Shown piece by piece: positions 5,548 through 38,795 of a stretch of 64,000 nt of DNA. Numbering within the stretch: the first letter of the stretch is position 1; each line of letters starts with the position of its first letter. Made by a program: the position numbers and the translations under genes. A model generated the notes under the pieces. It saw nothing but the letters and a program-made list of their open reading frames with translations, made no database searches and was not told where the DNA came from. The DNA comes from Hygrophila difformis (lineage: Eukaryota > Streptophyta > Magnoliopsida > Lamiales > Acanthaceae): assembly GCA_030278955.1 (NCBI GenBank), contig JAOANR010000008.1, positions 46,050,055 through 46,114,054 on the forward strand. Reading direction: 5' to 3'.

Positions 5548-6996
5548 GTAAGTTAATGCTTACATGGTTTGGGAAGATTTAAAATACTTTTGATCTAAAG
5601 ATTTAACCAAGGATTTAAAAATCTGTCAACATGAAATCTTTAACGGTGTAACATTTTTGCACGAATTTTTAGAACCCTTAAAACTGTCCAAACGAGAAAA
5701 CTTAAAACATGAAAAACGTTCCTAAGACATTAATCTAGCTACTGTAAAAATTTCATAATTTTTCATTGTGTTTTGATATCCGAAAATAACCGTGAACAGA
5801 CCTGCCATCGACTTAGATCTTGAAACGGTGATAGATTCTTTATCCGAACTTGAGGTTAATTTTTACCTTAGATCTAGACCGATTTAGGGTTAGTGTTAAA
5901 CATAAGAATTGTAGATCTATACGTTAAGTACACCTCCGTAAATCTTTTGGAATTTTTCGTTGAGGTTTGATATCGGAATTTGACTCCAAACCGAACTGTT
6001 CAAAATTTAGATCTTGAAATCTTGACAGATTCTTGGCCCGAACTTGTTGGCGTTTTTGACAATAGATATAGGGTGAATTAGATCTTTTGTTGAACATGAA
6101 ACATGTAGATATATGTATTCAGAATTCTCCTGTAAAATTTCATTAATTTTGGAGTTGGTTTGCTATGGTAGATCTCGAAATTTAGGAACTGCTGTCATAA
6201 AGATTCGGACAGATTTGTAACCTGTTAGAAATCGACATTTTTCACTTACTTCCGTATCTCAGATCGAAAAACTTAAAACATGAAACTTGTTCATCTCTGT
6301 GTTTGCAAGTCACGGGTCAAATTTCAGACTTTTTGGACTTAAACTCGATTTTTAATTAATTTTGAAGTGAACTGTGGTTGACCGAGTCAAATCTTGAAAA
6401 TCTTGTTGAAAAGGATTTTAAATGATATCGGAGCGGATAGCGTCCTGAAATAGTATATTTTGAGAAACTTACTAAATTTGGAAAATGGGTCTTTCTAAAC
6501 AAAAAGAAGATTAAAGCATTGGGGTTTATGACTAATCTGGATACTGTCAATTTTGTCTACGGCTTGGGACATAAGAGCCCTAGCGACATATTGTGATTGT
6601 ATGGTCAGCGGACGTAATGAACCTATTAAAAGATTGACCATGATACTCGTGGACATAAGAGCCCGAGCGTAAGGCTGGCGGACATAAGAGCCCTAGCGAT
6701 GGTGATCTGTAAAAGAAACGAAACGAGACATCTATAAGAGATTCAAATTAAATCCTTGATAAATTGTGCTTTTAAATTTATGTCGATTTATTTAATTACT
6801 CTGCAAGCTATATTGTTAATCTTATGGAACCCCCGTCTTTTAAATTATACAATTAAATTATTATTAAATGAATAGATTAAATTAGGCACATGTTTTCATT
6901 GAATTTAAGTAAAGGCTTTGAAACCTCATAATCATGTACGTGTTAACTTACTCAGCAAGTTTTTGCAGACCAAACCACATTTCTTTTTTTTTTCAG
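5548..6996 (+). other. Candidate LTR leader intron, element B
   Basis: The donor GTAAGT at 5548 follows a short putative first exon; the acceptor is a T-rich tract ending CAG at 6996. The same pair is found in the 3' LTR (56928 to 58404) and at equivalent places in A, C, D and E. The putative intron contains the hairpin array and, just before the acceptor, a small hairpin after TTAACTTACT. Splicing is inferred from sequence only. Confidence 0.4.
6563..6697 (+). repeat. Hairpin array, loop ACATAAGAG (B 5' LTR)
   Basis: Three units with the constant core GGACATAAGAGCCC at 6563-6584, 6646-6667 and 6674-6697. The second pairs CTCG(T)GG with CCCGAG and the third pairs GCTGG(C)GG with CCCTAGC around the same loop; the bracketed base is a bulge. 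The first unit looks like a fusion left by loss of one unit, because the 3' LTR has four (57942-58103). Confidence 0.6.
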
Positions 6997-8168
6997 AGTT
7001 GAGAATTATGCATCGTCATATGCATACATGGGAATTTTGGGAAGATATATTATTTTGAATTTTTGTATTAGACTAGAAATTGCATGAACGGGCCTGTTGA
7101 ACCCGTGTTTGGCCATGTTGGCCCTATATTTAAATTCCGCTGCATTATACATATGTAAATATTACTTTCCGCTGCAACTTATGTAATACTATTTTTGAAT
7201 TATATATGAATGGGCTGTTTGAATGTTTTAAATTCTGAAAAACCATATGTAATACCCGAGAAATCGACGTCGAGAATTTAAATCCAAAAATTAAAAAAAT
7301 TGGATTTAACTATCGCAACCGAAATAATTCCGAGAGAGCGGAATTAAATATTTTCGGACGATAGCAACTCGAAGAGAGTTATCGGATTATCCAACGATCT
7401 CGGATAATTCTATATTATGATTTTTAGAATTTAAAATCATAATATTCAAAAAAAAAAAAAAGAGACCGCGCAGCAGGTGGCCGCGCGATGGTGGCGCGCG
7501 GCGCGCGAAGCCCGCGCCGGCGGCCAGAGGTGGCGTTCCAAAACGCCATACGCGTTTTTGCTTCAATTTTCGAGATGATTCAAGTCCAATCAATCCAACT
7601 TCGGTTATCAGATACTTAGGGATGTATTTGGACTCCTTTGGATGGTTTTTGGATGTATTAAACTACCCACTAAGTTGGATTAATGTGGAAACATGAACAA
7701 AAGAAGATTCATTGAACCAAGGGTGAACATAGAGGGTGAATGTGGTTTGGTAGGCTCCAATTTCGAGCCTTGACTGCCATAAACCCTTCCACAACTTCCT
7801 AGGATCATCAAGGCTTCCATAGGAATTCTAAACACTCCCTTTCCAACCCCTTTTCAGCCCCAAAAACACTCCACCAACCTTCATTTCGAAAATCAGATTT
7901 ACATGAGAGTGTTGGTGAGAATTGTGAGTAGTTCTTCGGAGTTTGGCGAGTTGGACGAGTTCATCACCAACCAAACTTTTCATCCACAAGGTAAGGATCC
8001 CTTTCAGACCATATTTCACTTTAGAATCGAGATTTAAGACTAGAAACTAAGGATCTTTCCTCAACTTGTCCAAATCAAGGTTTCGGAAAAGTAGCAGGCT
8101 GTATTGCGGGTTGGAGGCCACCCTTGAGACTTGGATTTGAAGGATCTTCGACTCTAATCTAATCCTAA

Positions 8169-9639
8169 GTAAGTTAGTGTTGTGCCTTTCAAATTTTATA
8201 GCTTTTGGTTGAGTATTCATCGAGTTACAACTCGAAATCCAATCTTTGCCAAATCTGTGATTTAGGGTTTCCTCCGTATAGTTTATTTTGTTCATCTTTG
8301 TTCGTCTGGATCCGTTCATTTTTGGCAAAACTTTTCTAAATGAAAATTGTTTCTAACACTTTATATATGGTCTCTACAAATTTTCAAAATTTTTGGACAT
8401 GATTTAGACGTCGAAAAAGCATCTGGTATTTTCTGATTTTGTGTTGGCAGAATTCGTTTCATAGAAGCAGTCAGTGTTGTTGTTCGTATTACTCCTGTCT
8501 ACGGTCGTTTTTAATGGTCGACTTCTTCATGACAATTGTTCATCTATGTGTCTAGTTTACCCCTGTGAAATTTCAGAAATTTTGGATCACCCTTCGAATT
8601 GTTATGGAGTTTTAAGTAAACTGTGGTCGGATGAACAGTGATCTCTGCACCCTTTGAAAATGAGTTCCTGAAATGATTTTTTTTGGGCAACTTAGAGTCC
8701 GAATTTGCTAAGGCCTATTTCTGAGAAAAACGTTTATTTGGATGTCTCCTAGCACCTGTAAAAGTTTCAGAATTTTCTACAAAGTTTTACTACATTTCCT
8801 AGTGCGAATTCGAAAACTGCTACGGTGTGTTCTTTACCGGTAAACTTGGTTTCGTACGTTTGGATGATTAATGAGTCGATTGCTACTCTTTTGTGAATCT
8901 TATGAATTCTGGAAATGTTGTCATGGGTTGTAATGATTAAAATGTGAATTTTGAAACTTTGTGAGTTTTGATCGAGTTAGATGCCCAATTTTGGAGGGTA
9001 AGTGCACTTGGCGTGAGCTCGTTGGGCCGCCCCCTCTTTTTGGTGGCCAAAACGGCGCCAAGGAAATTATATTACGTGTTTGTATGAGTCTATACTCCTA
9101 GATGTATCCGTATGGGTTATCTAGGGCTCCGGAGTGTGTCTGTATAGGGTCCGCTACTTTCACTTGCCTTGCGGGTTCGATTCCCCAAGGTGTATGTTAT
9201 TCCTGCGGGTTCGATTCCCCAGGATATTGTTGACTCCTATGGGTTCGATTCCCTAGGATGTATATTGAGTTCTTGCGGGTTCGATTCCCCAAGGACGAGG
9301 TGTCCTCGATCATAATGAACAATGGTAAACGAAGGTATTTGAGTTCTGGAAACAATGATATCCTCGATCATATGGAAACAATGGTAAAAGAATGTGTTTG
9401 AGCTCTTTCGGGTTTGATTCCCCAAGAATGGTTGTTCTCAATCAAAAATGAATAATGATATATTATTCGTATGGTAAAGTGTAAGAATCTTCCGGATTAT
9501 TTTTACTCAACCTTCCTTTTTAAATTTCAAGTTCTAACTTTTAGATCTCTCTTCTAAAAACTTTAAAATTTGTTATGCTATATACTAACTTACTCAGTAC
9601 CGTTGTACTGATAGATACGTTGTCTCATTTTTTTTTCAG
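8169..9639 (+). other. Candidate LTR leader intron, element A 5' LTR
   Basis: GTAAGT donor at 8169, and T9-CAG acceptor at 9637-9639. The position in the LTR matches the B, C, D and E counterparts. It encloses both the larger hairpin and the T-arm-like array. In the 3' LTR the donor is kept (12715) but the acceptor region is lost in a deletion near 14180. Confidence 0.38.
9166..9430 (+). repeat. Array of T-arm-like hairpins with B-box core (A 5' LTR)
   Basis: Four exact copies of GGTTCGATTCC at 9174-9184, 9208-9218, 9242-9252 and 9278-9288, spaced 34, 34 and 36 bases, plus a one-mismatch copy (GGTTTGATTCC) at 9411-9421. The core equals the Pol III box B/tRNA T-loop consensus. Each core is flanked by arms that pair: CCTTG/CAAGG, TCCTG/CAGGA, TCCTA/TAGGA, TCTTG/CAAGG, each with one bulged base next to a GGG/CCC clamp. 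No box A or acceptor stem is seen, so these are not tRNA genes. Confidence 0.75.
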
Positions 9640-9969
9640 ATGTTGAAGATTAGCGCATGGCATTTACATTTGGGATGAGAATTTCCGAAGACTTGTCGCA
9701 CTTGTTTTTAAATTATTTTACGAATCCCAAACTCATGTTTGGCCGTGTTTGGCCCTTAGCTTCCGCACTGTTTTAAATTATGTATGTTAGACTTAACTCT
9801 GATTTAAACCTTCGGGCACTTGTTGAATGGTTTTTAAATTATTTTTTTTTAAGTATTGGTACAACTCAGCCTTAGCATCTTCTCAAGTGAGCTCGAAATG
9901 GTTCGCGTCTTGCTTGGGAAGGTGTGGCGGTAATGCCCTGGCCTGGGTGATCAAATCCGGGGTGTTACA

Positions 9970-10444
9970 AAGTGGTATCAGAGCCCGGAAAGTTTTTTTT
10001 AAGCTATTATTTATCGGCCCACTATAGAGGCTCAAAATATTCAATATTACTTTTAAGCACTTCAAATATTATTTCCATGGGAATGAATTTTATTTTAAAA
10101 CCCATGGGAATTATATAACAATTATTCCGACAAGTCTTGAAAAATGCATAAATATTTTTTTGGGGGGAGATGCATTTGCATACATCCATCATTTTTTTAA
10201 AATGCTCCAAAGTATTTATATGCATGTCACGTGTATTTGATAATGTTCTTAGTTGGTATGTCGATTGACCTTGCCTTAGAGCCACTAACTTGAATCTAAT
10301 CTTGCTTTAGCCTTAGAACTTGGTCAAGGGTGCTTAGTTTGCACATATCTATTCTCTTCTCTTACCCTTCCTATTATTAGATCTTCCTGACTGCTAACGT
10401 GCCTTAGATTAGAAACTCATCTTCGCGTGCTTGGATAACAGAAA
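9970..10444 (+). other. Element A leader with PBS
   Basis: TGGTATCAGAGCCCGG at 9973-9988 is a clean initiator-Met tRNA PBS, three bases after the LTR. Downstream are GGCCCACTATAGAGGCTC (10016-10033), a CCATGGG/CCCATGG inverted repeat (10075-10081 and 10101-10107) and a run of six G (10162-10167). The same order is seen in element B, and partly in C, which suggests RNA packaging or dimerisation signals (inference). No ORF0 is present, unlike C, D and E. Confidence 0.75.
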
Positions 10445-11589
10445 ATGGCACCTAGGGGAAGACCAAGGAGGGTAGTCCAAAACAGTGGTGATGCTAACGC
10501 ACCTAACGACAATGACATTCCTCAAAACATAGGAGGGCGAGTGCCAACTGTTCCCAACAATATGGATGAGCGTCTAAAGAATATTGAGGAAGTTCTCGTA
10601 GCACTAGGAAATGCCGAGGTGCAACGTGCACAAGCGGGTGTACCACCGCCAGTAACCCGAGGCAACTACCTAGCATTGGTGAACCCTTACAAACCACCTC
10701 ATTATGACGGCCAAGAGGACCCTACCAAGTTGGAGAATTGGATCCGAACTTTTGACAAGCTTCTTACTGCCGTCAAATGCCCCGAGAACGAGAAGGTTCG
10801 AGTGGCGACCTATTATCTGGATGGAGAGGCAGACGAGTGGTGGCAACATCTCCAAGGAGATTCGGCCGAAGTTGAGAAGGTTTATACATGGGAAGAATTT
10901 GAGGAAGCACTGAGAGAGAGAGGTTCTATCCACTGAGCACTAAGGCTGCAAAGTATGAAGAATTTATTAACTTAAGACAAGGAGGAAAAACGGTGCAAGA
11001 ATATTACACCAAGTTCAAGGAGCTAGTTCGCTTTGCTCCGAGACTTGTGCCAACTGACTCCGACAAGGCCCAGAAGTTCGAGATGGGGCTAAACCTTAGT
11101 ATCCGAGAGATACTGGTTGGAGGACAACACAATACACTACAGGCAGTGTATGACCGAGCTGTAGCAATCGCTCGTGTTCAGCGATTGAAGCGTAAGGACA
11201 ATGGTGAGTCGAGCAAGGGCTCGCAAGGATTTGAGAAAAAGAATCGAAGCAACAATAATAACAAATTGAGGAAGAACGATGGTCAAGCTAGGTTCGATGG
11301 ACCTAAGGAGAATGCAGACAGAGGTTTGAATAACAGAAGAAATGACACTCGTGGTACATCCATACCACGATGTCCGCAGTGCCACAAAGCTCATCTGGTA
11401 CGCGAGTGCCCTAAGCGTGGAACTTGTTATAGATGTGGTGTGGAAGACCACATGATTAGAGAATGCAATGTTCGCGAGGAGATGATCGAGAAGAGGTTGG
11501 ATCTGGTGAACCCTCCACACGAGAATCGGCCGACTGGGCCAAATCATCCCAATAATCAAGGACAGAGACCACAACAGAATCGCAACTAG
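10445..11589 (+). pseudogene. Element A gag, one frameshift
   Basis: The ATG at 10445 follows the CAGAAA context shared by all families here and gives MAPRGRPRR. The first frame runs to 10936 and carries the retrotransposon gag core (LENWIRTFDKLL at about residue 97, then a DEWWQ motif). A single-base shift near 10922 moves the reading to the frame that continues to the stop at 11589. That part has KFEMGLNL, a basic Asn-rich stretch and a CCHC knuckle (CYRCGVEDHMIREC, about 11430-11471). With the shift ignored it is about 380 codons, normal for a Tekay gag without pol. It has no protease domain after the knuckle. The product would form particles packaging this and related RNAs. Confidence 0.85.
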
Positions 11590-11795
11590 CAAGAAAATTC
11601 ATAGGCAGTTATGGGGACATAACTGCGGTCCTAAGGGGGAGAGGATGTGATACCCCACCGAGATGTCACGCATTGAGGTAAGAATTTAATTTTCGAGCCT
11701 CAATAATTCTATGCGTGTAAAACTACTTATGTTGGTGTTGCTTTCCGAGTGCGACCCAACTTCGAGGACGAAGTTGATTTCTAAGGGGGGTAGAC
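11590..11795 (+). other. Element A 3' module: pol-end scar and two polypurine tracts
   Basis: Just after the gag stop lies GTTATGGGGACATAACTG, the sequence that ends pol in C, D and E (Val-Met-Gly-Thr-stop). A first polypurine tract (AAGGGGGAGAGG, about 11633-11644) and a TGTGATACCCC start-like sequence follow. After about 110 bases come the hairpin AACTTCGAGGACGAAGTT (11758-11775) and a second tract (11780-11795) abutting the real LTR. Confidence 0.7.
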
Positions 11796-14379
11796 TGTAA
11801 TACCCGAGAAATCGACGTCGAGAATTTAAATCCAAAAATTAAAAAAATTGGATTTAACTATCGCAACCGAAATAATTCCGAGAGAGCGGAATTAAATATT
11901 TTCGGACGATAGCAACTCGAAGAGAGTTATCGAATTATCCAACGATCTCGGATAATTCCATATTATGATTTTAAGAATTTAAAATCATAATATTCAAAAA
12001 AAAAAACAGAGACCGCGCAGCAGGTGGCCGCGCGGTGGTGGCGTGCGGCGCGCGAAGCCCGCGCCGGCGGCCAGAGGTGGCGTTCCAAAACGCCATACGC
12101 GTTTTTGCTTCAATTTTCGAGATGATTCAAGTCCAATCAATCCAACTTCAGTTATCAGATACTTAGGGATGTATTTGGACTCCTTTGGATGGTTTTTGGA
12201 TGTATTAAACTACCCACTAAGTTGGATTAATGTGGAAACATGAACAAAAGAAGATTCATTGAACCAAGGGTGAACATAGAGGGTGAATGTGGTTTGGTAG
12301 GCTCCAATTTCGAGCCTTGACTGCCATAAACCCTTCCACAACTTCCTAGGATCATCAAGGCTTCCATAAGAATTCTAAACACTCCCTTTCCAACCCCTTT
12401 TCAGCCCCAAAAACACTCCACCAACCTTCATTTCGAAAATCAGATTTACATGAGAGTGTTGGTGAGAATTGTGAGTAGTTCTTCGGAGTTTGGCGAGTTG
12501 GACGAGTTCATCACCAACCAAACTTTTCATCCACAAGGTAAGGATCCCTTTCAGACCATATTTCACTTTAGAATCGAGATTTAAGACTAGAAACTAAGGA
12601 TCTTTCCTCAACTTGTCCAAATCAAGGTTTCGGAAAGTAGCAGGCTGTATTGCGGGTTGGACGCCACCCTTGAGACTTGGATTTGAAGGATCTTCGACTC
12701 TAATCTAATCCTAAGTAAGTTAGTGTTGTGCCTTTCAAATTTTATAGCTTTTGGTTGAGTATTCATCAAGTTACAACTCGAAATCCAATCTTTGCCAAAT
12801 CTGTGATTTAGGGTTTCCTCCGTATAGTTTATTTTGTTCATCTTTGTTCGTCTGGATCCGTTCATTTTTGGCAAAACGTTTCTAAATGAAAATTGTTTCT
12901 AACACTTTAAATATGGTCTCTGCAAATTTTCAAAATTTTGGGACATGATTTAGACGTCGAAAAAGCATCTGGTATTTTCTGAGTTTGTGTTGGCAGAATT
13001 CGTTTCATAGAAGCAGTCAGTGTTGTTGTTCGTATTACTCCTGTCTACGGTCGTTTTTAATGGTCGACTTCTTCATGACAATTGTTTATCTATGTGTCTA
13101 GTTTACCCCTGTGAAATTTCAGAATTTTTGGATCACCCTTCGAATTGTTATGGAGTTTTAAGTAAACTGTGGTCGGATGAACAGTGATCTCTGCACCCTT
13201 TGAAAATGAGTTCCTGAAATGATTTTTTTTGGGCAACTTAGAGTCCGAATTTGCTAAGGCCTATTTCTGAGAAAAACGTTTATTTGGATGTCTCCTAGCA
13301 CCTGTAAAATTTTCAGAATTTTCTACAACGTTTTACTACATTTCCTAGTGCGAATTCGAAAACTGCTACGGTGTGTTCTTTACCGGTAAACTTGGTTTCG
13401 TACGTTTGGATGATTAATGAGTCGATTGCTACTCTTTTGTGAATCTTATGAATTCTGGAAATGTTGTCATGGGTTGTAATGATTAAAATGTGAATTTTGA
13501 AACTTTGTGAGTTTTGATCGAGTTAGATGCCCAATTTTGGAGGGTAAGTGCACTTGGCGTGAGCTCGTTGGGTCGCCCCCTCTTTTTGGTGGCCAAAATG
13601 GCGCCAAGGAAATTATATTACGTGTTTGTATGAGTCTATACTCCTAGATGTATCCGTATGGGTTATCTAGGGCTCCGGAGTGTGTCTGTATAGGGTCCGC
13701 TACTTTCACTTGCCTTGCGGGTTCGATTCCCCAAGGTGTATGTTATTCCTGCGGGTTCGATTCCCCAGGATATTGTTGACTCCTATGGGTTCGATTCCCT
13801 AGGATGTATATTGAGTTCTTGCGGGTTCGATTCCCCGAGGACGAGGTGTCCTCGATCATAATGAACAATGGTAAACGAAGGTATTTGAGTTCTGGAAACA
13901 ATGATATCCTCGATCATATGGAAACAATGGTAAAAGAATGTGTTTGAGCTCTTGCGGGTTTGATTCCCCAAGAATGGTTGTTCTCAATCAAAAATGAATA
14001 ATGATATATTATTCGTATGGTAAAGTGTAAGAATCTTCCGGAATTATTTTTACTCAACCTTCCTTTTTAAATTTCAAGTTCTAACTTTTAGATCTCTCTT
14101 CTAAAAACTTTAAAATTTGTTATGCTATATACTAACTTACTCAGTACCGTTGTACTGATAGATACGTTGTCTCATTTTTCTTTGAATGGTTTTTTTTTAG
14201 ACTTAACTCTGATTTAAACCTTCGGGCACTTGTTGAATGGTTTTTAAATTATTATTTTTTAAGTATTGGTACAACTCAGCCTTAGCATCTTCTCAAGTGA
14301 GCTCGAAATGGTTCGCGTCTTGCTTGGGAAGGTGTGGCGGTAATGCCCTGGCCTGGGTGATCAAATCCGTGGTGTTACA
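11796..14379 (+). repeat. Element A 3' LTR
   Basis: Same order as the 5' copy. The T-arm-like array is at 13712-13970 with cores at 13720, 13754, 13788 and 13824 and a one-mismatch core at 13957. About 150 bases present at 9629-9787 of the 5' LTR are missing around 14180, which removes the polypyrimidine-CAG acceptor-like site. It ends GGTGTTACA before the TSD CCATA. Confidence 0.9.
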
Positions 14380-14384
14380 CCATA

Positions 14385-18006: not shown

Positions 18007-19256
18007 CTGTAGAAAAAGGAAATGACAACGGTTGTCAGTATAAAGATATATTGAGTAAGTTAATCCCTAACTAACAAATAAAAGGGGTTACATGTGTTTA
18101 AACTAAAGATCTCGCTTACCGTACGTGAATTTAAAAATACATAATTTATTTGCAGCGGATAAACATGATTAAAGGACTTAATTTTAAAAGCGTAATTTAA
18201 AGCATAATTTAAGATGCATAAATTTTAAATACATAATTAAAGACATGATAAATACGATTTAAGCATAATGAAACGCTCACACAAGTCTTTTACAATTTAT
18301 CCCGTAGACTAAGAAGAGGACACCATACCGGGAGATCACTAACGAGACAATCTCAACATTGGACCACTAACGAGGCAGTCCAAACAATGGGAGACCACTA
18401 ACGAGGCAGTCTCAAAAGATAGTAGGACCACTAACGAGGCGATCCGAAAAGATAGTAGGACCACTAACGAGGCAGTCTCAAAGATAATGATAGCATGAAG
18501 ATCGGCTCAGCCTAGTGAACGGGATTTTTCGAAAGTTCGTATTTCAAAGTTATCAAATGATCGATATCGCGTTTTCATAGTTCGAGTTTTCTCAAGTTCG
18601 AAAAATCCTATTCGAGGCAGTTTACGCCTTCCTTAATTAAAAATTCGTCTTTACACCAAAAATTCTGAAATTTTTACAGTAGTTCAAAAACACACACACG
18701 AACAACTTTCATGTTTTAAGAATTCGGAAATAATGAATTCTTGGTACTCAAAAATCGACCACAACTCAATGCGTACTCGCGGTCTTCGTAAACGTTTTAA
18801 AGCAATTCTGAAAATTCGGCCTATTGACATATCAAATGAACACCAAAATCCGTGATATTTTATATGCATAATCTAGACACAATTATCTACAACCTTTGTT
18901 AAGGAATGAAAAGTTGAATCATTCGAAAAATGGGTGAAAAACATGCATCAAATCAAATATGGAAATCTGTCACAGTTTAAAAACGTTCGGGTTGTCACAG
19001 AAAGTTCACGGCGTGATTTGGGATAGCAAAACTTAATGTCAACGGCTGAAATTTGGACACAAGATAGATAAAGGTGTTAGAAACAACTTTTATGTTGAAA
19101 AGTTTTCGGTTGGAATTCCCGAAGGTCAAGTTTTAGGCGAGCTATTGAAATTGGACGAAAATAGGGTTTTTGAAAACCGATTTTTGTTACAAGCCTATAT
19201 CTCGAGTTTTAAACAACAAACAACCACGAAAATTAGTGAGTAAGGTTTTAACTTAC
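18007..19256 (-). other. Candidate LTR leader intron, block D LTR 1
   Basis: Minus-strand GTAAGT donor at 19256-19251; polypyrimidine and CTACAG acceptor ending at 18007, followed by AGTATG as in element C. The hairpin array and, near the acceptor, a CAGTATA/TATACTG-type hairpin lie inside. Inferred from sequence and from the conserved position in A, B, C and E. Confidence 0.4.
18332..18480 (-). repeat. Hairpin array, loop CACTAACGAGGC (D LTR 1)
   Basis: Five units at 18332, 18361, 18391, 18425 and 18458. The arms around the constant loop are, on the plus strand, GAGAT/ATCTC, GGAC/GTCC, GAGAC/GTCTC, GGAC/GATCC and GGAC/GTCTC. The first unit has GAGACA in the loop instead of GAGGCA. LTRs 2 and 3 have the same five units. 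Confidence 0.8.
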
Positions 19257-20172
19257 CTAGAATGAGGATTGGGTCGCTGAAAAGGGTTTCCGGAGATCCT
19301 AGGGTCGCGACGAACGGCCAACTTCTCCGATTGCTTTTCGTTCGTTTTCCGGCGTGAAATCGTAGTAAAGGAAACGGGTTAGATTTTGAGTTTTTAAGTG
19401 TTATGGACGAACTAAAACATTAAGCTATGGCTTACCAAAGGTCTAGGAAGCAGGGGCCTCATCCCGTTTGCCTCGTCGTCGCCGGAATACTCGCCGGAAA
19501 GTGGTCTCGGAGGGATTTCGGCTTGGAGAGGAGAATTTGAGAGAGTGAGACTTTTGTTTTCTGTCCAAATGAGAATGAGGGCGCCCCAATCCGCCCTTAA
19601 GCCTTTCCCAAAGGCTGTGATCCGGTTGCCCTCGATAGGGATTGGATTTTTGGCAAGAAAATCGCCATGGAAGGAAAGTTTACACCTCCTGCACCTCTGG
19701 CGCGCTGGTGACGCGCACATAGGCCTTTGTCCGCGCGGAACACGCGTGGTCTGCCCTGGAGTCGCGACTCCTCCGTCCACGCGGTGGCCGCGCGGCGGCG
19801 CGCGGAGGGCGCGGGCCGGCCGGACCGGCCGGTTCGGCGGTCCGCGTGTTCTGTCAGGTCTTTCCTGGCTTTCCCCTATCGGTTTTCTACATGTTAGCTC
19901 GATTCCTTGGGTCGCCTTCGGTTCGGAATCTTTTCCTTAAACCTGTTACGAGTCCGGCTTATCGCTCGCAACATTTCCGTGCCCTAATTAGCCTAGTCTA
20001 AATTGGTTCCAACTCCTCCCATCGTCCTTGTGATCTATTTCGTGATTTATTTTGTGATTTATCTCGTGACTGAACTTAGAAATTAGTTCCAAGCTGCCTA
20101 CGTACCCTGTGAAGGGATCAAGTCATGACGTAGTTCAAAACAATTTGAATTTGTTTTTCCTTGGGTGTTACA

Positions 20173-26092: not shown

Positions 26093-28764
26093 TGTAACAC
26101 CCCGGATTTGGTAACCCAGGCCGAGGTGTCACCGCCGCATCTCCCTAGCAAGACACGGATTCCCGAGCTCGCTAAGGAGGTGCAAGGCTTATGGGTATAC
26201 AAAGTTTTTAAAACATTCAACAGCGAATCCGGAATTTATTAATACTTCAAATCAAGTACGATAGTAAAAATCATCATGCATGGATAAGGTAAATGCAGCG
26301 GAAAAGTAATCACGGCCAACACGGCCAAAACCTCGGGTTTAACAGACCCGGTAAAACAGTAGTATGATGCAGTAAATGAAAATGTTCACAAATGTATCCC
26401 CCCAAATGCGCGTGCATGCGTCACTCGACATACTCTGTAGAAAAAGGAAATGACAACGGTTGTCAGTATAAAGATATACTGAGTAAGTTAATCCCTAACT
26501 AACAAATAAAAGGGGTTACATGTGTTTAAACTAAAGATCTCGCTTACCGTACGTGAATTTAAAAATACATAATTTATTAGCAGCGGAAAAACATGATTAA
26601 AGGACTTAATTTTAAAAGCATAATTTAAGATGCATAAATTTTAAATACATAATTAAAGACATGATAAATACGATTTAAGCATAATGAAACACTCACACAA
26701 GTCTTTTACATTTTATCCCGTAGACTAAGAAGAGGACACCATACCGGGAGATCACTAACGAGGCAATCTCAACATAGGACCACTAACGAGGCAGTCCAAA
26801 CAATGGGAGACCACTAACGAGGCAGTCTCAAAAGATAGTAGGACCACTAACGAGGCGATCCAAAAAGATAGTAGGACCACTAACGAGGCAGTCTCAAAGA
26901 TAATGATAGCATGAAGATCGACTCAGCCTAGTGAACGGGATTTTTCGAAAGTTCGTATTTCAAAGTTATCAAATGATCGATATCGCGTTTTCATAGTTCG
27001 AGTTTTCTCAAGTTCGAATTCGAGGCAGTTTACGCCTTTCTTAATTAAAAATTCGTCTTGACACCAAAAATTCTAAAATTTTTACAGTAGTTCAAAAACA
27101 CACACACGAACAACTTTCATGTTTTAAGTTTTCGGAAATAAGGTTCCGAAGTGAGTCGAAATTCGAGTTCATTGCAAGGAATAATTTCTGTCTTAAAAAC
27201 TGGTTCCGTCACATGTTCGTGCAACGCCGATTAAAAATTCATTTCAAAACCAATCGATGCGAAATTTTTACAGGAACTACAAAACACGTTAAGGAACAAC
27301 TTTCATGTTTTAAGAATTTGGAAATAATGAATTCTTGGTACTCAAAAATCGACCACAACTCACTGCGTACTCGCGGTCTTCGAAAACGTTTTAAAGCAGT
27401 TCTGAAAATTCGACCGATTGACATATCAAATGAACACCAAAATCCATGAAATTTTTATATGCATAATCTAGACACAATTATCTACAACTTTTGTTAAGGA
27501 ATGCAAAGTTGAATCATTCGAAAAATGGGTGAAAAACATGCATCAAATCGAATATGGAAATCTGTCAGTTTAAAAACGTTCGGGTTGTCACAGAAAGTTC
27601 ACGGCGTGATTTGGGATAGCAAAACTTAATGTCAACGGCTGAAATTTGGACACAAGATAGATAAAGGTGTTAGGAACAACGTTTATGTTGAAAAGTTTTC
27701 GGTTTGAATTCCCGAAGGTCAAGTTTTAGGCGAGTTATTGAAATTGGACGAAAATAGGGTTTTTGAAAACCGATTTTTGTTACAAGCCTATATCTCAGTT
27801 TTAAACAACAAACAACCACGAAAATTTGTGAATAAGGTTTTAACTTACCTAGAATGAGGATTGGGTCGCTGAAAAGGGTTTCCGGAGATCCTAGGGTCGC
27901 GACGAACGGCCAACTTCTCCGATTGCTTTTCTTTCGTTTTCCGGCGTGAAATCGTAGTAAAGGAAACGTGTTAGATTTTGAGTTTCTAAGTGTTATGGAC
28001 GAACTAAAACATTAAGCTATGGCTTACCAAAGGTCTAGGAAGCAGGGCCCTCGTCCCGTTTGCCTCGTCGTCGCCGGAATACTCGCCGGAAAGTGGTCTC
28101 GGAGGGATTTCGGCTTGGAGAGGAGAATTTGAGAGAGTGAGACTTTTGTTTTCTGTCCAAATGAGAATGAGGGCGCCCCAATCCGCCCTTAAGCCTTTCC
28201 CAAAGGCTGTGATCCGGTTGCCCTCGATAGGGATTGGATTTTTGGCAAGAAAATCGCCATGGAAGGAAAGTTTACACCTCCTGCACCTCTGGCGCGCTGG
28301 TGACGCGCACATAGGCCTTTGTCCGCGCGGAACACGCGTGGTCTGCCCTGGAGTCGCGACTCCTCCGTCCACGCGGTGGCCGCGCGGCGGCGCGCGGAGG
28401 GCGCGGGCCGGCCGGACCGGCCGGTTCGGCGGTCCGCGTGTTCTGTCGGGTCTTTCCTGGCTTTCCCCTATCGGTTTTCTACGTGTTAGCTCGATTCCTT
28501 GGGTCGCCTTCGGTTCGGAATCTTTTCCTTAAACCTGTTACGAGTCCGGCTTATCGCTCGCAACATTTCCGTGCCCTAATTAGCCTAGTCTAAATTGGTT
28601 CCAACTCCTCCCATCGTCCTTGTGATCTATTTCGTGATTTATTTTGTGATTTATCTCGTGACTGAACTTAGAAATTAGTTCCAAGCTGCCTACGTACCCT
28701 GTGAAGGGATCAAGTCATGACGTAGTTCAAAACAATTTGAATTTGTTTTTCCTTGGGTGTTACA
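26093..28764 (-). repeat. Block D LTR 2 (central, shared by the two units)
   Basis: 2672 bp, the same length as LTR 3 and close to it (I count about nine differences by eye). Hairpin array at 26748-26895; acceptor-proximal hairpin at 26464-26481; GC-rich block at 28370-28430. Two copies of AACAACTTTCATGTTTTAAG at 27109-27128 and 27295-27314. It serves as 5' LTR of unit 1 and 3' LTR of unit 2, with no TSD next to it. Confidence 0.9.
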
Positions 28765-31798: not shown

Positions 31799-34555
31799 TG
31801 TAACACCCCGGATTTGATAACCCAGGCCGGGATGTCACCGCCGCATTTCCCTAGTAAGACACGGCTTCCCGAGCTCGCTAAGGAAATGCAAGGCTTGTGG
31901 GTATGAAAAAGATTTAAAAACATTTCAAGATTTAGTCCGGAAATTTATAATATTTAGTACGATAGTAGAAATTATCACGTACGGAAAATAAATAAAGTAA
32001 GTGCAGCGGAAAGTAAAATCACGGCCAACATGGCCAAATCCTCGGGTTTAACAGACCCGGTAAAAACAGTACGATGCAGAAATTTAAAATGTTCATGAAT
32101 AATTCCCCCAAGTGCATGTGTATGCGTCACTCGACATACTCTGTAAAAGAAAAATGACAACGGTTGTCAGTATAAAAATATACTGAGTAAGTTAATCCCT
32201 AACTAACAAATAAAAGGGGTTACAAGTGTTTAAACTAAAGATTTCGCTTATCGTACGAGGATTTAAAAATACATGATTTATTAGCAGCGGAAAAACATGA
32301 TTAAAGAACTTAATTTAAAGAGCGGAATTTAAAGCATAATTTAAGATGCATAAAAATTTAAATACGTAATTGAAGACAGGATAAATACGATTTAAGCATA
32401 ATGAAACACTCACACGAGTCTTTTACTTTTCATCCCGTAAACTAAGAAGAGGACACCATACCGGGAGATCACTAACGAGGCAATCTCAACATAGGACCAC
32501 TAACGAGGCAGTCCAAACAATGGGAGACCACTAACGAGGCAGTCTCAAAGATAGTAGGACCACTAACGAGGCGATCCAAAAAGATAGTAGGACCACTAAC
32601 GAGGCGATCCACAAATACAGCGCGCGAGATCACTAACGAGGCAATCTCAGATAGTAAGGAGACCACTAACGAGGCAGTCTCAAAGATAATGATAGTATGA
32701 AGATCGGCTCAGCCTAGTGAACGGGATTTTTCGAAAGTTCGTATTTCAAAGTTATCAAAGGATCGATATCGCGTTTTCATAGTTCGAGTTTTCTCAAGTT
32801 CGAAAAATCCTATTCGAGGCAGTTTACGCCTTTCTTAATTTAAAATTCGTTTTACCTCCAAAAATTCTGAAACTTGGCCAGTAATTCAAAAACACACACA
32901 CGAACAACTTTCATGTTTTAAGTTTTTGGAAATAAGGTTCCGAAGTGAGTTAAATTTGAGTTTATTGCAAAGAATAATTTACGTCTTAAAACTGTTTTCG
33001 TCACAGGTTCGTGTAACGCCGATTAAAAATTCATTTCAAAACCAATCGATGTGAAATTTTTACAGTAACTACACGACACATTAAGGAACAACTTTCATGT
33101 TTTAAGTTTTTGGAAATAATGAATTCTTGGTACTCAAAAATCGTGTGCAACTCACTGCATACTCATGGCCCTTAAAACGAATTCAAAACAGTTCTAAAAA
33201 CTTGGCCGATTGACATATCAAATGAACACCAAAATTCGTGAAATTTTGTAGGCATAATCTAGACACAATTATCTACAACTTTTGTTTAGAAATGCAAAGT
33301 TAAATCATTCGAAAAATGGGTGAAAAACATGCATCAAGTTGAATGAAGGAATCTGTCACAGATTTAAACGGTTCGGTTCAATACAGAAAGTTCATGGCGA
33401 AAATTGGGATAGCAAAACTTAATGTCAATGGCTGAAATTTGGACACAAGATAGATAAAGGTGTTAGGAACAACTTTTATGTTGAAAAGTTTTCGGTTTGA
33501 ATTCCCGAAGGTCGAGTTTTTGGCGAGTCTTTAAAATTGGACGAAAATAGGGTTTTTGAAAACCGATTTTTGTTACAAGCCTATATCTCGAGATTTAAAC
33601 AACAAACAACCGCAAAAATTTGTGAGTAAGGTGTTAACTTACTTAGAATGATGTTAGGGTCGCTGGATTGGGTTTCCGGATGTCCTAGGGTCACGACGAA
33701 CGGCCAACTTCTCCGATTGCTTTTTGTTCGTTTTCCGTCGTGAAATCGTAGTAAGGAAATAGTGTTAGAATTCGAGTTTCAGAGACTCATGGACGAATTA
33801 AAATGTTTAACCATGGCTTACCAAGAGTCTAGAGGGCAGGGCTTGGTTCCTCTCGCCTCGTCGTCGCCGGAATGCTTGCCGGAAAGTGTCGTCGGAAGAG
33901 TTTCGGCTTGGGGAGGAAGTTTGGGAGTAATGTGGGAGTGAGTTTTCTGTGGGATTAGGGTTTTGAGTCTCCCCAGCCGCCCCTAAGCCTTCCTTAAGGC
34001 TGGGATTTGGTTTCCCTCGAAGGGAGATGTAATTTCGGCAAGAAAATCACCCCCGAATGGAAAGATTACACCTTCAGCCCCTCTGGCGCGGAGGTGGCGC
34101 GCACCTACCCCTATGGTCGCGCGGAGCACGCGCGCCAGGCCTGGCGTCGCGACGCCCTTGGCCGCGCGGTGGCCGCGCGGCGGCGCGCGGACAGCGCGGG
34201 CCGGCCGGACCGGCCGGTTCGGCTCCGCGTGTTCCGTCGGGTCTTCCCTCGCTTTTCCCTATCGGTTTTCTACGTGTTAGCTCGATTCCCTGGGTCATTT
34301 TCGTTGCGGAATCTTCTCCTTAATCTTGTTGCGAGTCCGGCTTATCGCTCGCAACATTTCCGGGTCCTACTTAGCCTAGTCTAAATTGGTTTCAACATCT
34401 CCTATCGTCCTTGTGATCTAATTCGTGATGTATTTTGTGATTTATTTCGTGACTGAACTTAGAAATTAGTTCTAAGCTGCCTACGTACCCTGTGAAGGGA
34501 TCAAGTCATGACGTAGTTCAAAACAATTTGAATTTGTTTTTCCTCGGGTGTTACA
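31799..34555 (-). repeat. Element E left LTR (3' LTR in element sense)
   Basis: Related to the D LTRs, with the same ends (TGTAACACCC...GGGGTGTTACA) and the same internal order: GC-rich block (34155-34220), donor-like site 33642, acceptor-like site 32141. The hairpin array (32465-32682) has seven units, two more than D. Apart from these signals it is AT-rich and non-coding; long frames across the GC-rich block (such as 34007-34384) are chance. Confidence 0.9.
32465..32682 (-). repeat. Hairpin array, loop CACTAACGAGGC, seven units (E left LTR)
   Basis: Arms on the plus strand in order: GAGAT/ATCTC, GGAC/GTCC, GAGAC/GTCTC, GGAC/GATCC, GGAC/GATCC, GAGAT/ATCTC, GAGAC/GTCTC. The 12-base loop is identical in all seven. 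Arm changes T-to-C on one side are matched by A-to-G on the other. Repeated at 39461-39677 in the right LTR. Confidence 0.85.
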
Positions 34556-34578
34556 TCCTCCCCCCCTTAAGAATACAG

Positions 34579-34857
34579 TTATGTCCCCATAACTGTGGTC
34601 GGGTCGTCTTGGAAGAGGGTAGGGTAACGTTGCCTCATGTCGGCTTCCAATTCCCAGGTTGCCGTCTCCGTCTCGTGGTTGGACCACAGGACCTTGACCA
34701 TCTTTACAGTTTTATTCCTTGTCACCCTTTCCTTGTAGTCGAGTATTTGCACCGGGGTTTCTTCATAGGTCAAGTCATCATCCAATTCGATTACGTCCGG
34801 TTGGAGTACATGCGACGTGTCGGGCACATACTTCTTTAGTTGGGGGTCGTGGAACAC
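34579..34857 (-). pseudogene. Element E pol remnant: integrase tail and chromodomain
   Basis: Only the last part of pol remains: [16 protein letters not shown], then the chromodomain ([16 protein letters not shown]) and VMGT-stop at 34579. Upstream in element sense the match to D stops at about 34860-34870, where foreign sequence begins. The chromodomain of Tekay elements is thought to guide integration to heterochromatin; here it has no integrase attached and no plausible start, so it is probably kept only as part of the 3' region needed in cis. Confidence 0.85.
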
Positions 34858-35942
34858 ATTGTGGTCACGAGTAAACGGTGGTGGGGTCGTTAGTTAACAT
34901 GCCGCTCTCATTTCCCTACGGAATTTCTTAGGGTCCCTAGGTATTTACGTCCCGGGGGTTTCCCGTAGCCTGCGAAAGGAGGGCGTGAGGCAATTCCGCC
35001 GTCCTTGCCCGGAATAATGCCAGGCGATGCTCCCTGTCGACGTATTTCCCTGTCAATGTATGCCCGGGTTCAGCGAGGAGCGTATAGCGAAAGAGATTGA
35101 GCAGAACAGGAAAGATAAAACTCCACCCGGGTCTCGCGCGGTGGCCGCGCGTTGGCGCGCGGGGAGCGCGCGGCAACCCCTGTTCGAAAAAAATAGGGCT
35201 CGCGCTCCGCGCGAGCCACTTCCTCCATTTCCCATCCGAGAACACACCCCCAATTCTCTCTAAATCCGGCGAGTTACCTTCCTTTTTGCTCGATTTCGAC
35301 TTCAATTTCACTCATCCAGGTACGATTCTACTAAACCCACTTCCTAATTTCAACTTTTATGTTTTGAATGATTCGATTTGTGAAGAGATTTAGGAAATTA
35401 GGGTTTGTGTACAAAAATTGGGGGTTTATGATTTTTAGGCTTGATTTGTGCAATTTAGCAAGTGTATGTGGCAATTGTTGTTACTCTTGTTGCCTTGCCT
35501 ATGTTTATGTTATAATGTGTTTATGTTTTTGGCAAATTCTTGTTGAATTCGAATCCTTAGAAAGGCTATGAAGTTATTGATACTTGGTTGCTGTTGGGGT
35601 GTGATTATGGGCTCGTTCCTTCGTTGTTTAGTGCTGTAGGATTTGCCGTATTGTTATTAGAATGATTGTTTCGTTCTGTGGGCGATTTCCGTGTGTTGTT
35701 AGTAACTTAGGTTTTGGTTTATTGTTCACATAACGTGTTCGACGAAATGCCACATAGGGTTTAGGCACTAGTTTTAGCATATTCTTTGTCTAGGTCACCT
35801 CCTGGTTGGTCTTAGTAATCGGTAGGGTTTGTTGTTCTTACGGTACATTCACGTTGGGATTATATATTAATGCCCTATTCGTATTTTCGCTTGACTTCTG
35901 TGTGGGACTTAGCCTTATAATTGGTGTTTGGTAACTTGCAGG
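34858..35942 (+). other. Upstream region and predicted first intron of the gene inside element E
   Basis: It matches nothing else in the window except a GC-rich motif, CGCGCGGTGGCCGCGCG, at 35133-35149, also found in all LTRs. A perfect 8-bp GC hairpin (GGCTCGCG/CGCGAGCC) lies at about 35198-35218. A splice-like pair follows: CATCCAG|GTACG at 35319/35320 and TTGCAG|G at 35941, giving a predicted 622-bp T-rich intron directly before the ATG at 35943. Long stretches of this region resemble a plant 5' UTR and promoter. Inferred, without transcript evidence. Confidence 0.45.
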
Positions 35943-37277
35943 ATGTTGCTATTTTTGTGGGTCGTTTTGGCGTCTCTCGTGTGTCCTCCGAGGACTAGGA
36001 GACGGGTTGCTGATGAGGCTGGCCCCAGTCATGCTGCTCCGGCGATGCCGGATTTCGACGAGAGCGAGTCAGAGGAGGATGAGGCGCAGAGGGGCCCGCG
36101 TCTCAGGGGCCTCCCGGACGAGGTGCGTCCTCACCGGCATGACAGGTTCCGGTTTAGGACGAGGGCTGCCCAGGACTTTTATTTCGACGAGCTTCGTCGA
36201 AACAGGTCTTACGTCCCTGAGAGAGGCATATATCCTCTTCATATGGGCGATGACAGGGTCAGTGCGGTCTTGGAGTATTTACAGTGGACTGGTCTGGCAC
36301 GTCACCCCGAGGGCGTCGCCTCCGGTTATTTGGCTATGGAGGTTATTGCCAACATCGGCGGTCTCGGGGAGGGTGACGATCTATCCCGGGTATGGGTCCG
36401 TGGTCGCTATCTCGACTTCAGTGCTCGGGCGATCAACGTCTATTTTGGCTTGCCCGACGATGGCGTGTTCCGACCCCAGCCTGAGGGGCGCGTTCTTGCT
36501 CCTGCGTGGAACACCTTATGCACCCTAGTGCCTCCTGCGTTCGAGCACAGTCATGAGCTTCGTTTGACGTCGGTGGACTCCCCTTGGCGAGGGCTCGCTC
36601 AGCTATGGTTCGGGCGTGTCCGGCCGATGTCCCGGAGCCACATTGTCTTGGATCACGTCTACGAGACCATTTGCTTCATCGCGCGGGACGGTAGGGTGAA
36701 TGTAGGGGCTTGCATCGAGGACAACTTGCGGGGTATGCGCAGAGGACGAGGGAGTAGGGTGATTACCCATGTTCACCTCATCTGTGGGTTGTGCGCGGCA
36801 CAGGGGATTCGCACTACACCGGAGACAGATCCGTACGACCTAGCACCTGGCCGTTGCTACCGTATTCCGTCTTATGCTGAGCGGCGTAGCGCCTTACGTC
36901 GTGGGGCTCCCCGTGCTGTACTTCGCCCGCAGCCTGATGACGGCGGCCTGATCCTCGTTGTACCACCGGAGCAGCCACCACCTCCTCCAGTGGTTCCACC
37001 TCCTGCTGGGGCACCTCCTGCCGTGGCACCTCAGGGGCAGGAGATGATTCAGATGCTGCAGATGATGCAGGAGATGCGGGTCGGTATGGACGCCGGGTTT
37101 GCAGCTGGGCAGGCTCGTTATGACGCCCTCGACGCTAGGTTGGACCTCTATCAGACCCGCATGGACTCGTTTGCTACGAGGCAGGCTCAGCAGCAGGCCA
37201 CCATGTCCGACATGTACGCCTATGTGCGGCAGATGGACGACTTCATGCGCCGACAGTTCCCGCCTCCCGATCAGTGA
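35943..37277 (+). CDS. 444-aa protein inside element E, resembling 'putative plant transposon protein' family
   Basis: An intact frame antisense to its carrier. I place the start at 35943, the first ATG after a predicted 3' splice site; an upstream in-frame ATG at 35928 would lie in the intron. The N-terminus (LLFLWVVLASLVC) is hydrophobic and could be a signal or membrane segment. An acidic stretch (ESESEEDE) follows, then a globular domain of about 200 residues with VRGRYLDFSARAINVYFGLP. That resembles the signature of the plant family named 'putative plant transposon protein' (PF20167-like; my recognition, not a search). A Pro-rich linker (about residues 335-365) and a C-terminal Met/Asp/Gln-rich coiled coil complete it. 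Codon use is GC-rich and uninterrupted, unlike the decayed frames around it. Function unknown. Confidence 0.65.
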   Translation: MLLFLWVVLASLVCPPRTRRRVADEAGPSHAAPAMPDFDESESEEDEAQRGPRLRGLPDEVRPHRHDRFRFRTRAAQDFYFDELRRNRSYVPERGIYPLHMGDDRVSAVLEYLQWTGLARHPEGVASGYLAMEVIANIGGLGEGDDLSRVWVRGRYLDFSARAINVYFGLPDDGVFRPQPEGRVLAPAWNTLCTLVPPAFEHSHELRLTSVDSPWRGLAQLWFGRVRPMSRSHIVLDHVYETICFIARDGRVNVGACIEDNLRGMRRGRGSRVITHVHLICGLCAAQGIRTTPETDPYDLAPGRCYRIPSYAERRSALRRGAPRAVLRPQPDDGGLILVVPPEQPPPPPVVPPPAGAPPAVAPQGQEMIQMLQMMQEMRVGMDAGFAAGQARYDALDARLDLYQTRMDSFATRQAQQQATMSDMYAYVRQMDDFMRRQFPPPDQ

Positions 37278-38062
37278 TGTCTCCCTTGGTTTCGTGTTTT
37301 CGTTTAGGTTTTGCGTTTAGACGTACCTTGTTTAGGCTCCTCCTTATGAGAACGTTTCTGTTGTCTGGGATTTGTGGTTTATATTTTCGTTGTGTTATTG
37401 CTTAGTTATGTGTTTGACATGTGTTAGTAGTCTACTGCTGTTTAGAAACATGGTTCAATTGTTCTGCCTATTTTATGGTTTGAGATGTCCTGGATTTACT
37501 GTTACCTTCCTATCGTATCTACATGTGTGTGGGTCGCCCAACAATACTTGCACTGTTGCTTGACTAAACCGCTTCAAGGAACTTAGATAAACTAGTGTGA
37601 TAAGATATAAGGGGTAGAGTTTATATGTTAAATAAATAGCTGCTTGCAAGAAGATTAGTCTTTTAATAGGTATCAATTTATCAGGGTTTTCTTGTAAAGG
37701 TTGTTGGAATTTATTTATTTATATGTACATATTTACGTATTGTATATATTTTATTATTATCTTTATTATTATTATTTCCATTATTATTATTATTTTTATT
37801 TTTATTTTTATTTTTTTTATTTTTTTTATTTTATTTTTTTTTTATCTGTTCGGTTCTTTTTTTTTTTTTTTTTTGTAGATTTCCCTCCTTGATTATGGTA
37901 GTTAAAGAACTAAATGAAATGCATGGAGTAAATTTAAATAGGCTTGTATTTTTATTATTCAAGAATTAAATTTGGTTTACAAGCGTTCGAAATAGAAATA
38001 GGTGCGCTGCTAATAGTACGGAAGGGAAAGTATACTAATAATGCATAGCTGGATCACTAGAT
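37278..38062 (+). other. 3' flank of the gene inside element E, with T-rich microsatellite
   Basis: 37278 to about 37700 is AT-rich and could be the 3' UTR. A long (TTA/TTTTA/T)n low-complexity run spans about 37740-37876. From about 37900 the sequence loosely resembles the spacer between gag and ORF0 of block D, so the foreign segment probably ends near 37880-37950. No poly-A tail is visible at the end of the plus-strand gene, which together with the predicted intron argues against capture through a processed mRNA. Confidence 0.5.
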
Positions 38063-38460
38063 CTAAAACGAATGGGCAGGCTCGACCTTGATGGGATCAT
38101 CCTCATCGCTCGACACATCGATGGGTATGGCGACATTGGGAGCAGGCCCCGGGTTCTGAAGGACCGCTCCGTCCACGTCCTGGGCCAGGTTAGTCAGTTC
38201 CCAGCCTATGGTCTCTATCTGCTCCTCCAAATCATCTCCCTTGTCTTGGAGCTGGGCCACTTGGGCTTGGAGGTGTGTGACTTGCTCCTGCAGCTGGGTT
38301 ATGTGGTGATGGTCCGTTTCCCTAAGGTGACCCAAATGGGCCAGGTTACCCTCCAACTGTCCTACCCGCGTTTTGAAGTAATTGATGTGCTGTTGGCCCT
38401 CAAGGTATGCGTTCATTAATTCACCATCAAATTGACCATGTTCGCGTTGGGCTCGGCCAT
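38063..38460 (-). pseudogene. ORF0 of element E, one frameshift
   Basis: The original ATG is at 38460-38458, reading MAEPNANMVNLM as in unit 1 of D, but a single-base change near 38420 shifts the frame. From there to the stop at 38063 the frame is open: a Leu/Gln-rich coiled coil (HITQLQEQVTHLQAQVAQLQ), then a Pro/Ala segment and an acidic SSDEDDP tail. The frame is easy to misread as starting at 38473, which has no counterpart in the other elements. Confidence 0.7.
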
Positions 38461-38795
38461 CTAATGTCAACAAGGGAGGTTAGAGTTAGATGTTTTTCAG
38501 GCAAGGTTAAGATATGCATAAATTTAATTCTATATGCAACATGCAAGTGCAAGTCCCTTCCCCATAAAATTTAGTTTAAAATAAATTGCTAAAGGTTGGG
38601 CCTCTATAGTGGGCCAAAATTTAATATTTCTTGGGCTAAGATTTGGGCTATGTAAAAAGGATTATAGATTTTTGGGCTAAAAATAGTACTAGTAGTCAAA
38701 TGAATAATTTTAAAAGAAATAACACTTGGGCTTAAAAATATTGGTTTAAAATAATAGTAGTAGCTTTAAAAATTTTCCGGGCTCTGATACCAACT
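38461..38795 (-). other. Element E leader with PBS
   Basis: PBS TGGTATCAGAGCCCGG on the minus strand at 38792-38777. GGCCCACTATAGAGGCCC on the minus strand at 38615-38598, matching the D, A and B leader motif. Confidence 0.75.

Follow-up and report, generated by a model that had tools for sequence, protein, structure and literature searches.

A box B-like hairpin array in the LTRs of a gag-only Ty3/gypsy retrotransposon of Hygrophila difformis belongs to a set of at least five hairpin modules that can replace one another

Both LTRs of element A, a gag-only Ty3/gypsy LTR retrotransposon of Hygrophila difformis, carry an array of short hairpins with box B-like cores, and at least five hairpin modules, this array among them, can take the same LTR place. 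The arrays occupy a similar position in the LTRs that bear them, their stems covary and, in the copies sampled, their cores are conserved. We give about an even chance to the overall reading that these are interchangeable RNA hairpin arrays in the mid-to-3' part of long LTRs, contained in an LTR intron and serving as a multivalent protein landing pad; that the arrays act as structured RNA hairpins is, taken by itself, probable. The box B match is probably incidental, a property of one loop type among several. Element A lies in the 64,000-nt stretch of genomic DNA analysed here (the window), whose features are collected in Table 1.

Table 1 Features of the window discussed in the text.
Feature	Positions	Strand	Remarks
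Target site duplication	7243-7247 (left), 14380-14384 (right)	.	CCATA
5' LTR of element A	7248-9969	+	TGTAATACCC...GGGGTGTTACA, 2722 bp
Putative 5' splice site 1	7991-7995	+	CAAG/GTAAGGA; candidate function
Putative 5' splice site 2	8169-8174	+	CTAA/GTAAGT; candidate function
Hairpin unit 1	9166-9191	+	CCTTG-C-GGG-TTCGATT-CCC-CAAGG
Hairpin unit 2	9200-9225	+	arms TCCTG/CAGGA
Hairpin unit 3	9234-9259	+	arms TCCTA/TAGGA, T bulge
Hairpin unit 4	9270-9295	+	arms TTCTTG/CAAGGA including a U.G pair
Hairpin unit 5	9403-9428	+	loop TTTGATT, not an exact box B
Conserved block	9585-9610	+	CTAACTTACTCAG plus hairpin CAGTA/TACTG, branch-point-like
Putative 3' splice site	9626-9639	+	pyrimidine-rich tract ending CAG, first exon base 9640; candidate function
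Primer binding site of element A	9973-9985	+	TGGTATCAGAGCC
gag of element A	10445-11589	+	two frames, the capsid part preceding the CCHC knuckle
3' LTR of element A	11796-14379	+	deletion took out 3' splice-site-like sequence
Five-unit set of 3' LTR of element A	13712-13974	+	
B-type array, 5' LTR of element B	6560-6698	+	three exact cores; one likely deletion chimera
B-type array, 3' LTR of host element B	57940-58104	+	core GGACATAAGAGCC; four units and one decayed
D-type array	32464-32682	-	seven units, loop CUCGUUA
Further D arrays	18331-18480, 26747-26896, 39460-39678, 45099-45248		

Element A sits inside an LTR of element B, and its paired LTRs with TG...CA ends, 98.9% identical over their main aligned part, together with a 5-bp target duplication identify it as an LTR retrotransposon. 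We take its primer binding site, TGGTATCAGAGCC, to be a Met-tRNA site. No ORF of at least 200 aa and no pol domain was seen inside the element, whose domain matches were Retrotrans_gag and CCHC. The lineage is of gypsy type, the D element giving matches to gag, RVT_1, RNase H, H2C2, rve (E 1.8e-7, just under the cut-off) and SH3_Tf2-1, with a Chromo match at residues 599-635 of one D ORF below the cut-off (E 0.06) and none in the other ORF. The array-bearing LTR lineage probably belongs to the Tekay/Del chromoviruses of Ty3/gypsy, a clade in which the consulted part of one survey places Retrosat2 (PMC6317226); the R region of the Retrosat2 LTR is given as 245-2266 (PMC3485330). A protein search with the second gag piece of A returned two matches (E 2e-12 and 1e-11), and among IMG/VR sequences 31 stretches fitted a pattern for relatives of this piece, none of which was confirmed. 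At 11631-11655, 150 bp ahead of the real one in A, stands an extra polypurine tract with an LTR-start-like sequence (CTAAGGGGGAGAGGATGTGATACCC), perhaps a remnant of another LTR. Self-comparison resolved 17674-47116 into minus-strand D elements in the order LTR-internal-LTR-internal-LTR, with another D element (31799-41553) within the second interior. The ORF at 35928-37277 has a match just under the cut-off to the plant transposon protein family PF20167.

The 5' LTR of A holds exact copies of GGTTCGATTCC at 9174, 9208, 9242 and 9278 and a copy with a single mismatch, GGTTTGATTCC, at 9411; the same five-copy set recurs at 13720-13967 in the 3' LTR. An earlier note on this DNA had claimed four exact copies and one near copy and a duplicate array in the 3' LTR, and both statements were confirmed, the first in each LTR and the second for all five units. 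With at most one mismatch the window holds 10 matches to GGTTCGATTCC, against a mean of 1.3 and a maximum of 5 in shuffled sequence (0 of 100 shuffles reached 10). Core-to-core distances are 34, 34, 36 and then 133, so that the fifth unit stands apart and the spacing of about 34 given earlier describes four units only. Each A-type unit comprises an outer stem of five pairs, beyond which pairing mostly fails, a single pyrimidine bulge on the 5' side, a GGG/CCC clamp and the loop TTCGATT, whose C is lost from unit 5 in both LTRs. The box B core GGTTCGANTCC is matched by four of the five units per LTR. The proposed equality with a tRNA T-arm did not hold: in place of five unbulged pairs closing a TTCRANN loop, the unit has three clamp pairs, the pyrimidine bulge and then the outer stem. 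Other identities were also rejected. ARAGORN found no tRNA gene in the window, and neither a cloverleaf nor an A box and B box at tRNA distance is present; Rfam yielded just two matches, both far below threshold, and none to a tRNA family in 9000-9600; and for a pol III promoter there is no TTTT in 9150-9500, and the nearest A-box-like match precedes the first core by 130 bp.

The outer arms covary, as had been proposed: among the seven distinct A units of the window, four of nine pairs are changed on both sides and 92.1% of cells are paired, and sliding the partner lowers both measures. When arms were swapped among distinct units from the window and loci L009-L068, Watson-Crick pairs numbered 93/125 against 76.7 after swapping for A (1 of 5000 swaps as good) and 36/45 against 28.9 for D (18 of 5000). 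For B the count was 68/85 against 56.3 (0 of 5000), a value favoured because the register, bulged or not, was picked per unit to fit the right arm; an earlier B test with a single fixed register was weak (0.37). Exact tests on the deduplicated window units gave 0.033 for A, 0.25 for B and 0.067 for D (combined 0.0006). Genome counts at pair 3 were 7166 T-A, 6220 C-G, 2115 T.G (U.G; 4955 expected) and 110 C.A (2950 expected), and at pair 1 were 6220 G-C, 4044 A-T and 243 mismatched (134 G.T and 109 A.C, against about 5028 expected), with reversed controls all 0; these are not independent events because copies share descent. The U.G excess at pair 3 looks like largely one inherited unit type, and at pair 1 G.T and A.C hardly differ in number (p 0.12). 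Among distinct arms of the three types, G.U outnumbered A.C by 25 to 12 (p 0.047). The pair counts support stem pairing and weakly support pairing in sense RNA.

Folding against shuffles differed between types. On each strand, a 141-nt stretch of the A array folded better than any of 200 shuffles (z -3.8 and -3.7); its predicted whole-stretch fold pairs units together, and single hairpins would therefore not be the sole possible structure. The D array folded better in sense (z -2.1) than in antisense (-0.45), the B array stayed near its shuffles on the two strands (z -1.0 and -1.1), and the GNRA array described below was better in antisense (z -3.4) than in sense (-1.6).

Window LTRs related to those of A carry two further array types, B and D, and in all three the array starts at about 1874-1919 of the 2.7-kb LTR. 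Type B has stems such as GCTAG/CTAGC and CTTG/CGAG around its core, with a similar bulge in most units. In type D, arms such as GAGAC/GTCTC, GAGAT/ATCTC and TGGAC/GTCCA flank TGCCTCGTTAGTG, and the unit can form an eight-pair hairpin with the 7-nt loop CUCGUUA in the sense strand; its inner stem relies on sense-strand U.G and G.U pairs, which the antisense cannot form. No repeated array was found in the C-type 3' LTR at 52954-55512. Loops at the same LTR place in relatives are ACATAAGAG, CUCGUUA and a GAAA (GNRA) tetraloop, and GCCGG/CCGGC hairpins also occur there; the GNRA type, taken from L060, is a TTGCC-GAAA-GGCAA hairpin with a 28-bp period and 9,281 genomic copies. No window place outside the A arrays matches box B with at most one mismatch, and the B and D arrays are therefore without it. 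A window scan for hairpin arrays that required contiguous stems picked up A, D and a handful of unrelated short words; in a second version D alone was flagged, and 10 Markov replicates gave 0 clusters. B was missed by both, so that such scans undercount arrays. At 6560-6585 and 18456-18480 stand units with mismatched arms, the left arm coming from one unit and the right from another, likely by deletion between two cores. A single LTR, L049, has both A-type hairpins (loop TTAGATT) and GCCGG/CCGGC hairpins.

The four LTR types A to D align at 43-70% identity. Outside the last ~60 bases of the four-way alignment its best conserved 20 columns (15 invariant) are a TTAACTTACTCAG stretch, which is followed by a hairpin (CAGTA/TACTG, CAGCA/TGCTG or CAGTATA/TATACTG) and then by pyrimidines and CAG. 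This block has 19,790 places in the genome (reversed control 0). Among 40 block-bearing copies from the window and L009-L048, 34 have pyrimidines plus AG within 48 nt of the block, and in 15 distinct forms of the block hairpin pairs 4-6 are Watson-Crick in 32 of 45 cases against 23.4 after swapping (p 0.0017). GTAAG (site 1) and GTAAGT (site 2) stand at similar places in all four LTR types, 175-179 bp apart at 707-744 and 882-922; GTAAG as a motif showed no sense-strand enrichment. The array precedes the block and would sit in the 3' half of a putative intron. From these signals we consider it fairly probable that the array lies in a leader intron within the LTR; the 19 ATGs before gag in A's putative second exon and leader count against this. 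A search of the genome for intronless copies with two exact junction patterns, which cover D/C-type ends only, gave 0 matches for each, a result that fits packaging of unspliced RNA only and equally an absence of splicing. Comparison of 9637-9786 with 14184-14196 indicates that the putative 3' splice site was deleted in the 3' LTR of A and kept in the 5' LTR.

Arrays have been exchanged between LTR backbones, some of them near-identical. In loci L035 and L036 two B-type GGACATAAGCGCC hairpins stand in place of the box B hairpins of element A; these loci match A upstream at 86-87% over 540 nt, with 93% over the 297 nt adjoining the array, and downstream at only 70% over about 435 nt. L011 and L013 hold A-type arrays in B-like flanks (92% and 86-89% on the two sides). 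The CAGCACGTAGTG form of the block has 14 places among the matches listed, three of which are L017 (A type) and one a likely LTR partner; the remaining ten (L069-L078, two of them sampled before) comprise six of GNRA type and four of B type. Here L071 (GNRA) and L073 (B) share flanks identical at 89% (148 nt, upstream) and 95% (475 nt, downstream), with unlike arrays between them; for L070 (B) and L078 (GNRA) the downstream flanks agree at 95% over 470 nt and no match was found upstream. Twenty block places were hand-picked among the first 100 matches listed, seeking hairpin variety and avoiding LTR partners, and are thus not a random sample: all 20 have at least one hairpin of the types reported in this study (up to three mismatches allowed), 12 have at least three core copies (L059 by a 9-mer), and one is of A type. 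In a neighbouring 200-kb stretch (10,486 masked bases) 16 block copies were found, four with a core repeated at least three times (A twice, B once, D once).

The host genome (915 Mb) contains 21,236 exact copies of the 13-nt core, against 11 of the reversed pattern, in LTR arrays and in SINE-like sequences. Eight of 20 fetched core places have A-type arrays, the unit number varying up to 13 (L009/L010), and 12 have lone cores only, about nine of which resemble, by eye, a tRNA-derived SINE with an A-box-like stretch. Lone GGGTTCGATTCCC copies outside LTR arrays, many in tRNA-derived SINE-like sequence, were seen at L016 and L018-L028. The earlier note had proposed comparing core retention with that of the flanks in other copies. 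In the arrays of the eight fetched loci and the two window LTRs of A, units are 95% identical to one another in the core, 70-71% in the arms and 42% just outside, strongly drifted units being missed because units were sought with at most three mismatches in 13; drift of cores as fast as flanks was not found. At the fetched loci the loop TTCGATT was counted 79 times (lone SINE-like cores included), TTCAATT 19, TTTGATT 10 and TTAGATT three times. L049 has three TTAGATT units, which are A-type hairpins with a non-box-B loop. TTCAATT and TTTGATT are what the loss of a methylated CpG would yield.

The most likely mechanism would be as follows. The array would be transcribed between GTAAG donors ~710-920 bp into the LTR and an acceptor marked by the branch-point, hairpin and CAG ~330-350 bp before the LTR end. 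If this intron position is right, the array would therefore be restricted to unspliced, genome-length RNA, where a protein that marks or handles such RNA could use it as a multivalent landing pad. The shared form, with invariant loops on kept stems, suits a multivalent RNA element bound by loop-specific proteins. Weighing against this reading are the better antisense fold of the GNRA array, the near-shuffle folding of the B array, the C-type LTR that has no repeated array and the missing sense-strand excess of GTAAG. Our preferred reader would be Gag, with the array as a psi-like packaging and sorting element, a choice that is by itself rather doubtful; a host RNA-binding or splicing factor could serve instead. 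Retroviral psi and leader regions have several conserved-loop hairpins near the 5' end of the genomic RNA, and psi is restricted to unspliced genomic RNA. Several conserved-loop hairpins are likewise present here and an intron position would limit them in the same way; the resemblance is one of logic only, the present arrays being known from sequence and having up to 13 near-identical units. To our knowledge, how plant LTR retrotransposons distinguish genomic RNA from mRNA and how non-autonomous copies are packaged are largely open questions. Among plant LTR retrotransposons, BARE1 offers a likeness in its distinct RNA pools, spliced RNA serving translation and a separate pool packaging (PMC3735527); it differs in that its 104-nt intron lies outside the LTR, at the end of gag, and the consulted part of that source revealed no hairpin array.

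Rather unlikely is a role in splicing or intron retention through host factors with no part in packaging. The place of the array between putative donors and the conserved branch-point hairpin and acceptor would suit such a regulator, but swapped loops would require several host readers, and the splicing itself is deduced from sequence signals. DNA-level regulation, as intronic enhancers or promoter-proximal palindromes of the kind proposed for Sirevirus LTR repeats, we judge unlikely. In the part of the report consulted, Sirevirus palindromic repeats (at least 8 copies per element in 13 elements) are concentrated in the LTR, ahead of the TATA box, and are interpreted as possible regulatory DNA (PMC2829016); in maize a small RNA excess at Sirevirus-type palindromes is cited (PMC10760457). 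Because of these palindrome precedents, DNA regulation or recognition by host small RNAs stay live. The two systems are alike in having family-specific LTR palindrome arrays (of CGG-CCG form in Sireviruses) and predicted hairpins (PMC2829016, PMC10760457), with conserved cores and diverged flanks. Sireviruses (Ty1/copia) belong to another superfamily, however, and their motifs are symmetric and upstream of the TATA box, whereas the present arrays have longer loops and covarying stems, lie downstream of TATAAATA in B and are exchanged as whole modules between near-identical backbones; together with the gypsy domains, this position led us to reject identity with a Sirevirus repeat array. Three points weigh against DNA regulation: TATAAATA (557-573 in B and C, with C at 572) is ~1.3 kb upstream of the array in B; T.G greatly exceeds C.A at pair 3, a difference not seen at pair 1; and constant loops on variable stems are the reverse of a dyad binding site.

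That the arrays have no function, tandem repeats being maintained by unequal exchange and arm symmetry by template-switch (quasi-palindrome) mutation, is quite unlikely. Likely deletion chimeras between cores and the varying unit number agree with such a process, but homogenisation alone would not yield cores so much better conserved than the sequence just outside, nor does it suit several unrelated array types at one place. Mimicry of a tRNA T-arm in RNA, for instance as a substrate of T-loop modifying enzymes of the Pus4/TruB type, is improbable. The seven-base loop on a GGG/CCC clamp recalls it, and TTCAATT, the commonest of three counted variants, obeys the purine rule of the tRNA T-loop; the bulge below the clamp speaks against mimicry, which would explain only one loop type where modules with unrelated loops replace the A type. 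Least probable of all, and very much so, is TFIIIC binding to box B cores in the DNA as extra-TFIIIC or insulator sites: the exact GGTTCGATTCC cores, their conservation and the upstream A-box-like match would agree with it, but box-B-less arrays fill the same position in related and some near-identical LTRs, DNA binding does not need covarying arms, and C56 is missing in unit 5 and in three L049 units. The earlier suggestion that TFIIIC recruitment is the point of the array is unsupported, since arrays with unrelated loops replace the A type in the same lineage and position, and it is hard to sustain because box B would be needed in all array types. Retrotransposons that target tRNA genes through box B and TFIIIC (PMC5911963, in the part consulted) share the exact box B sequence with A and differ in that modules without box B replace it here; no targeting is implied for the present arrays. 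A repeat may have a perfect box B without any involvement of TFIIIC.

In the open-access literature consulted, including part of PMC3601003, we found neither swappable hairpin arrays nor an intron embedded in the LTR described for this lineage. Returning to the RNA landing pad, the modules are short, countable and interchangeable, so that sequence, structure and function become comparable across natural swaps in an LTR lineage whose shared block recurs at 19,790 places in one genome. A further, rather doubtful idea is that the arrays might be exchangeable psi-like cassettes confined to an intron, with one loop type per Gag, recombination letting elements ride in the particles of other families. 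If so, gag-only elements such as A would be among those that switch loop type, and loop swapping would be the record of a packaging arms race among plant retrotransposons.
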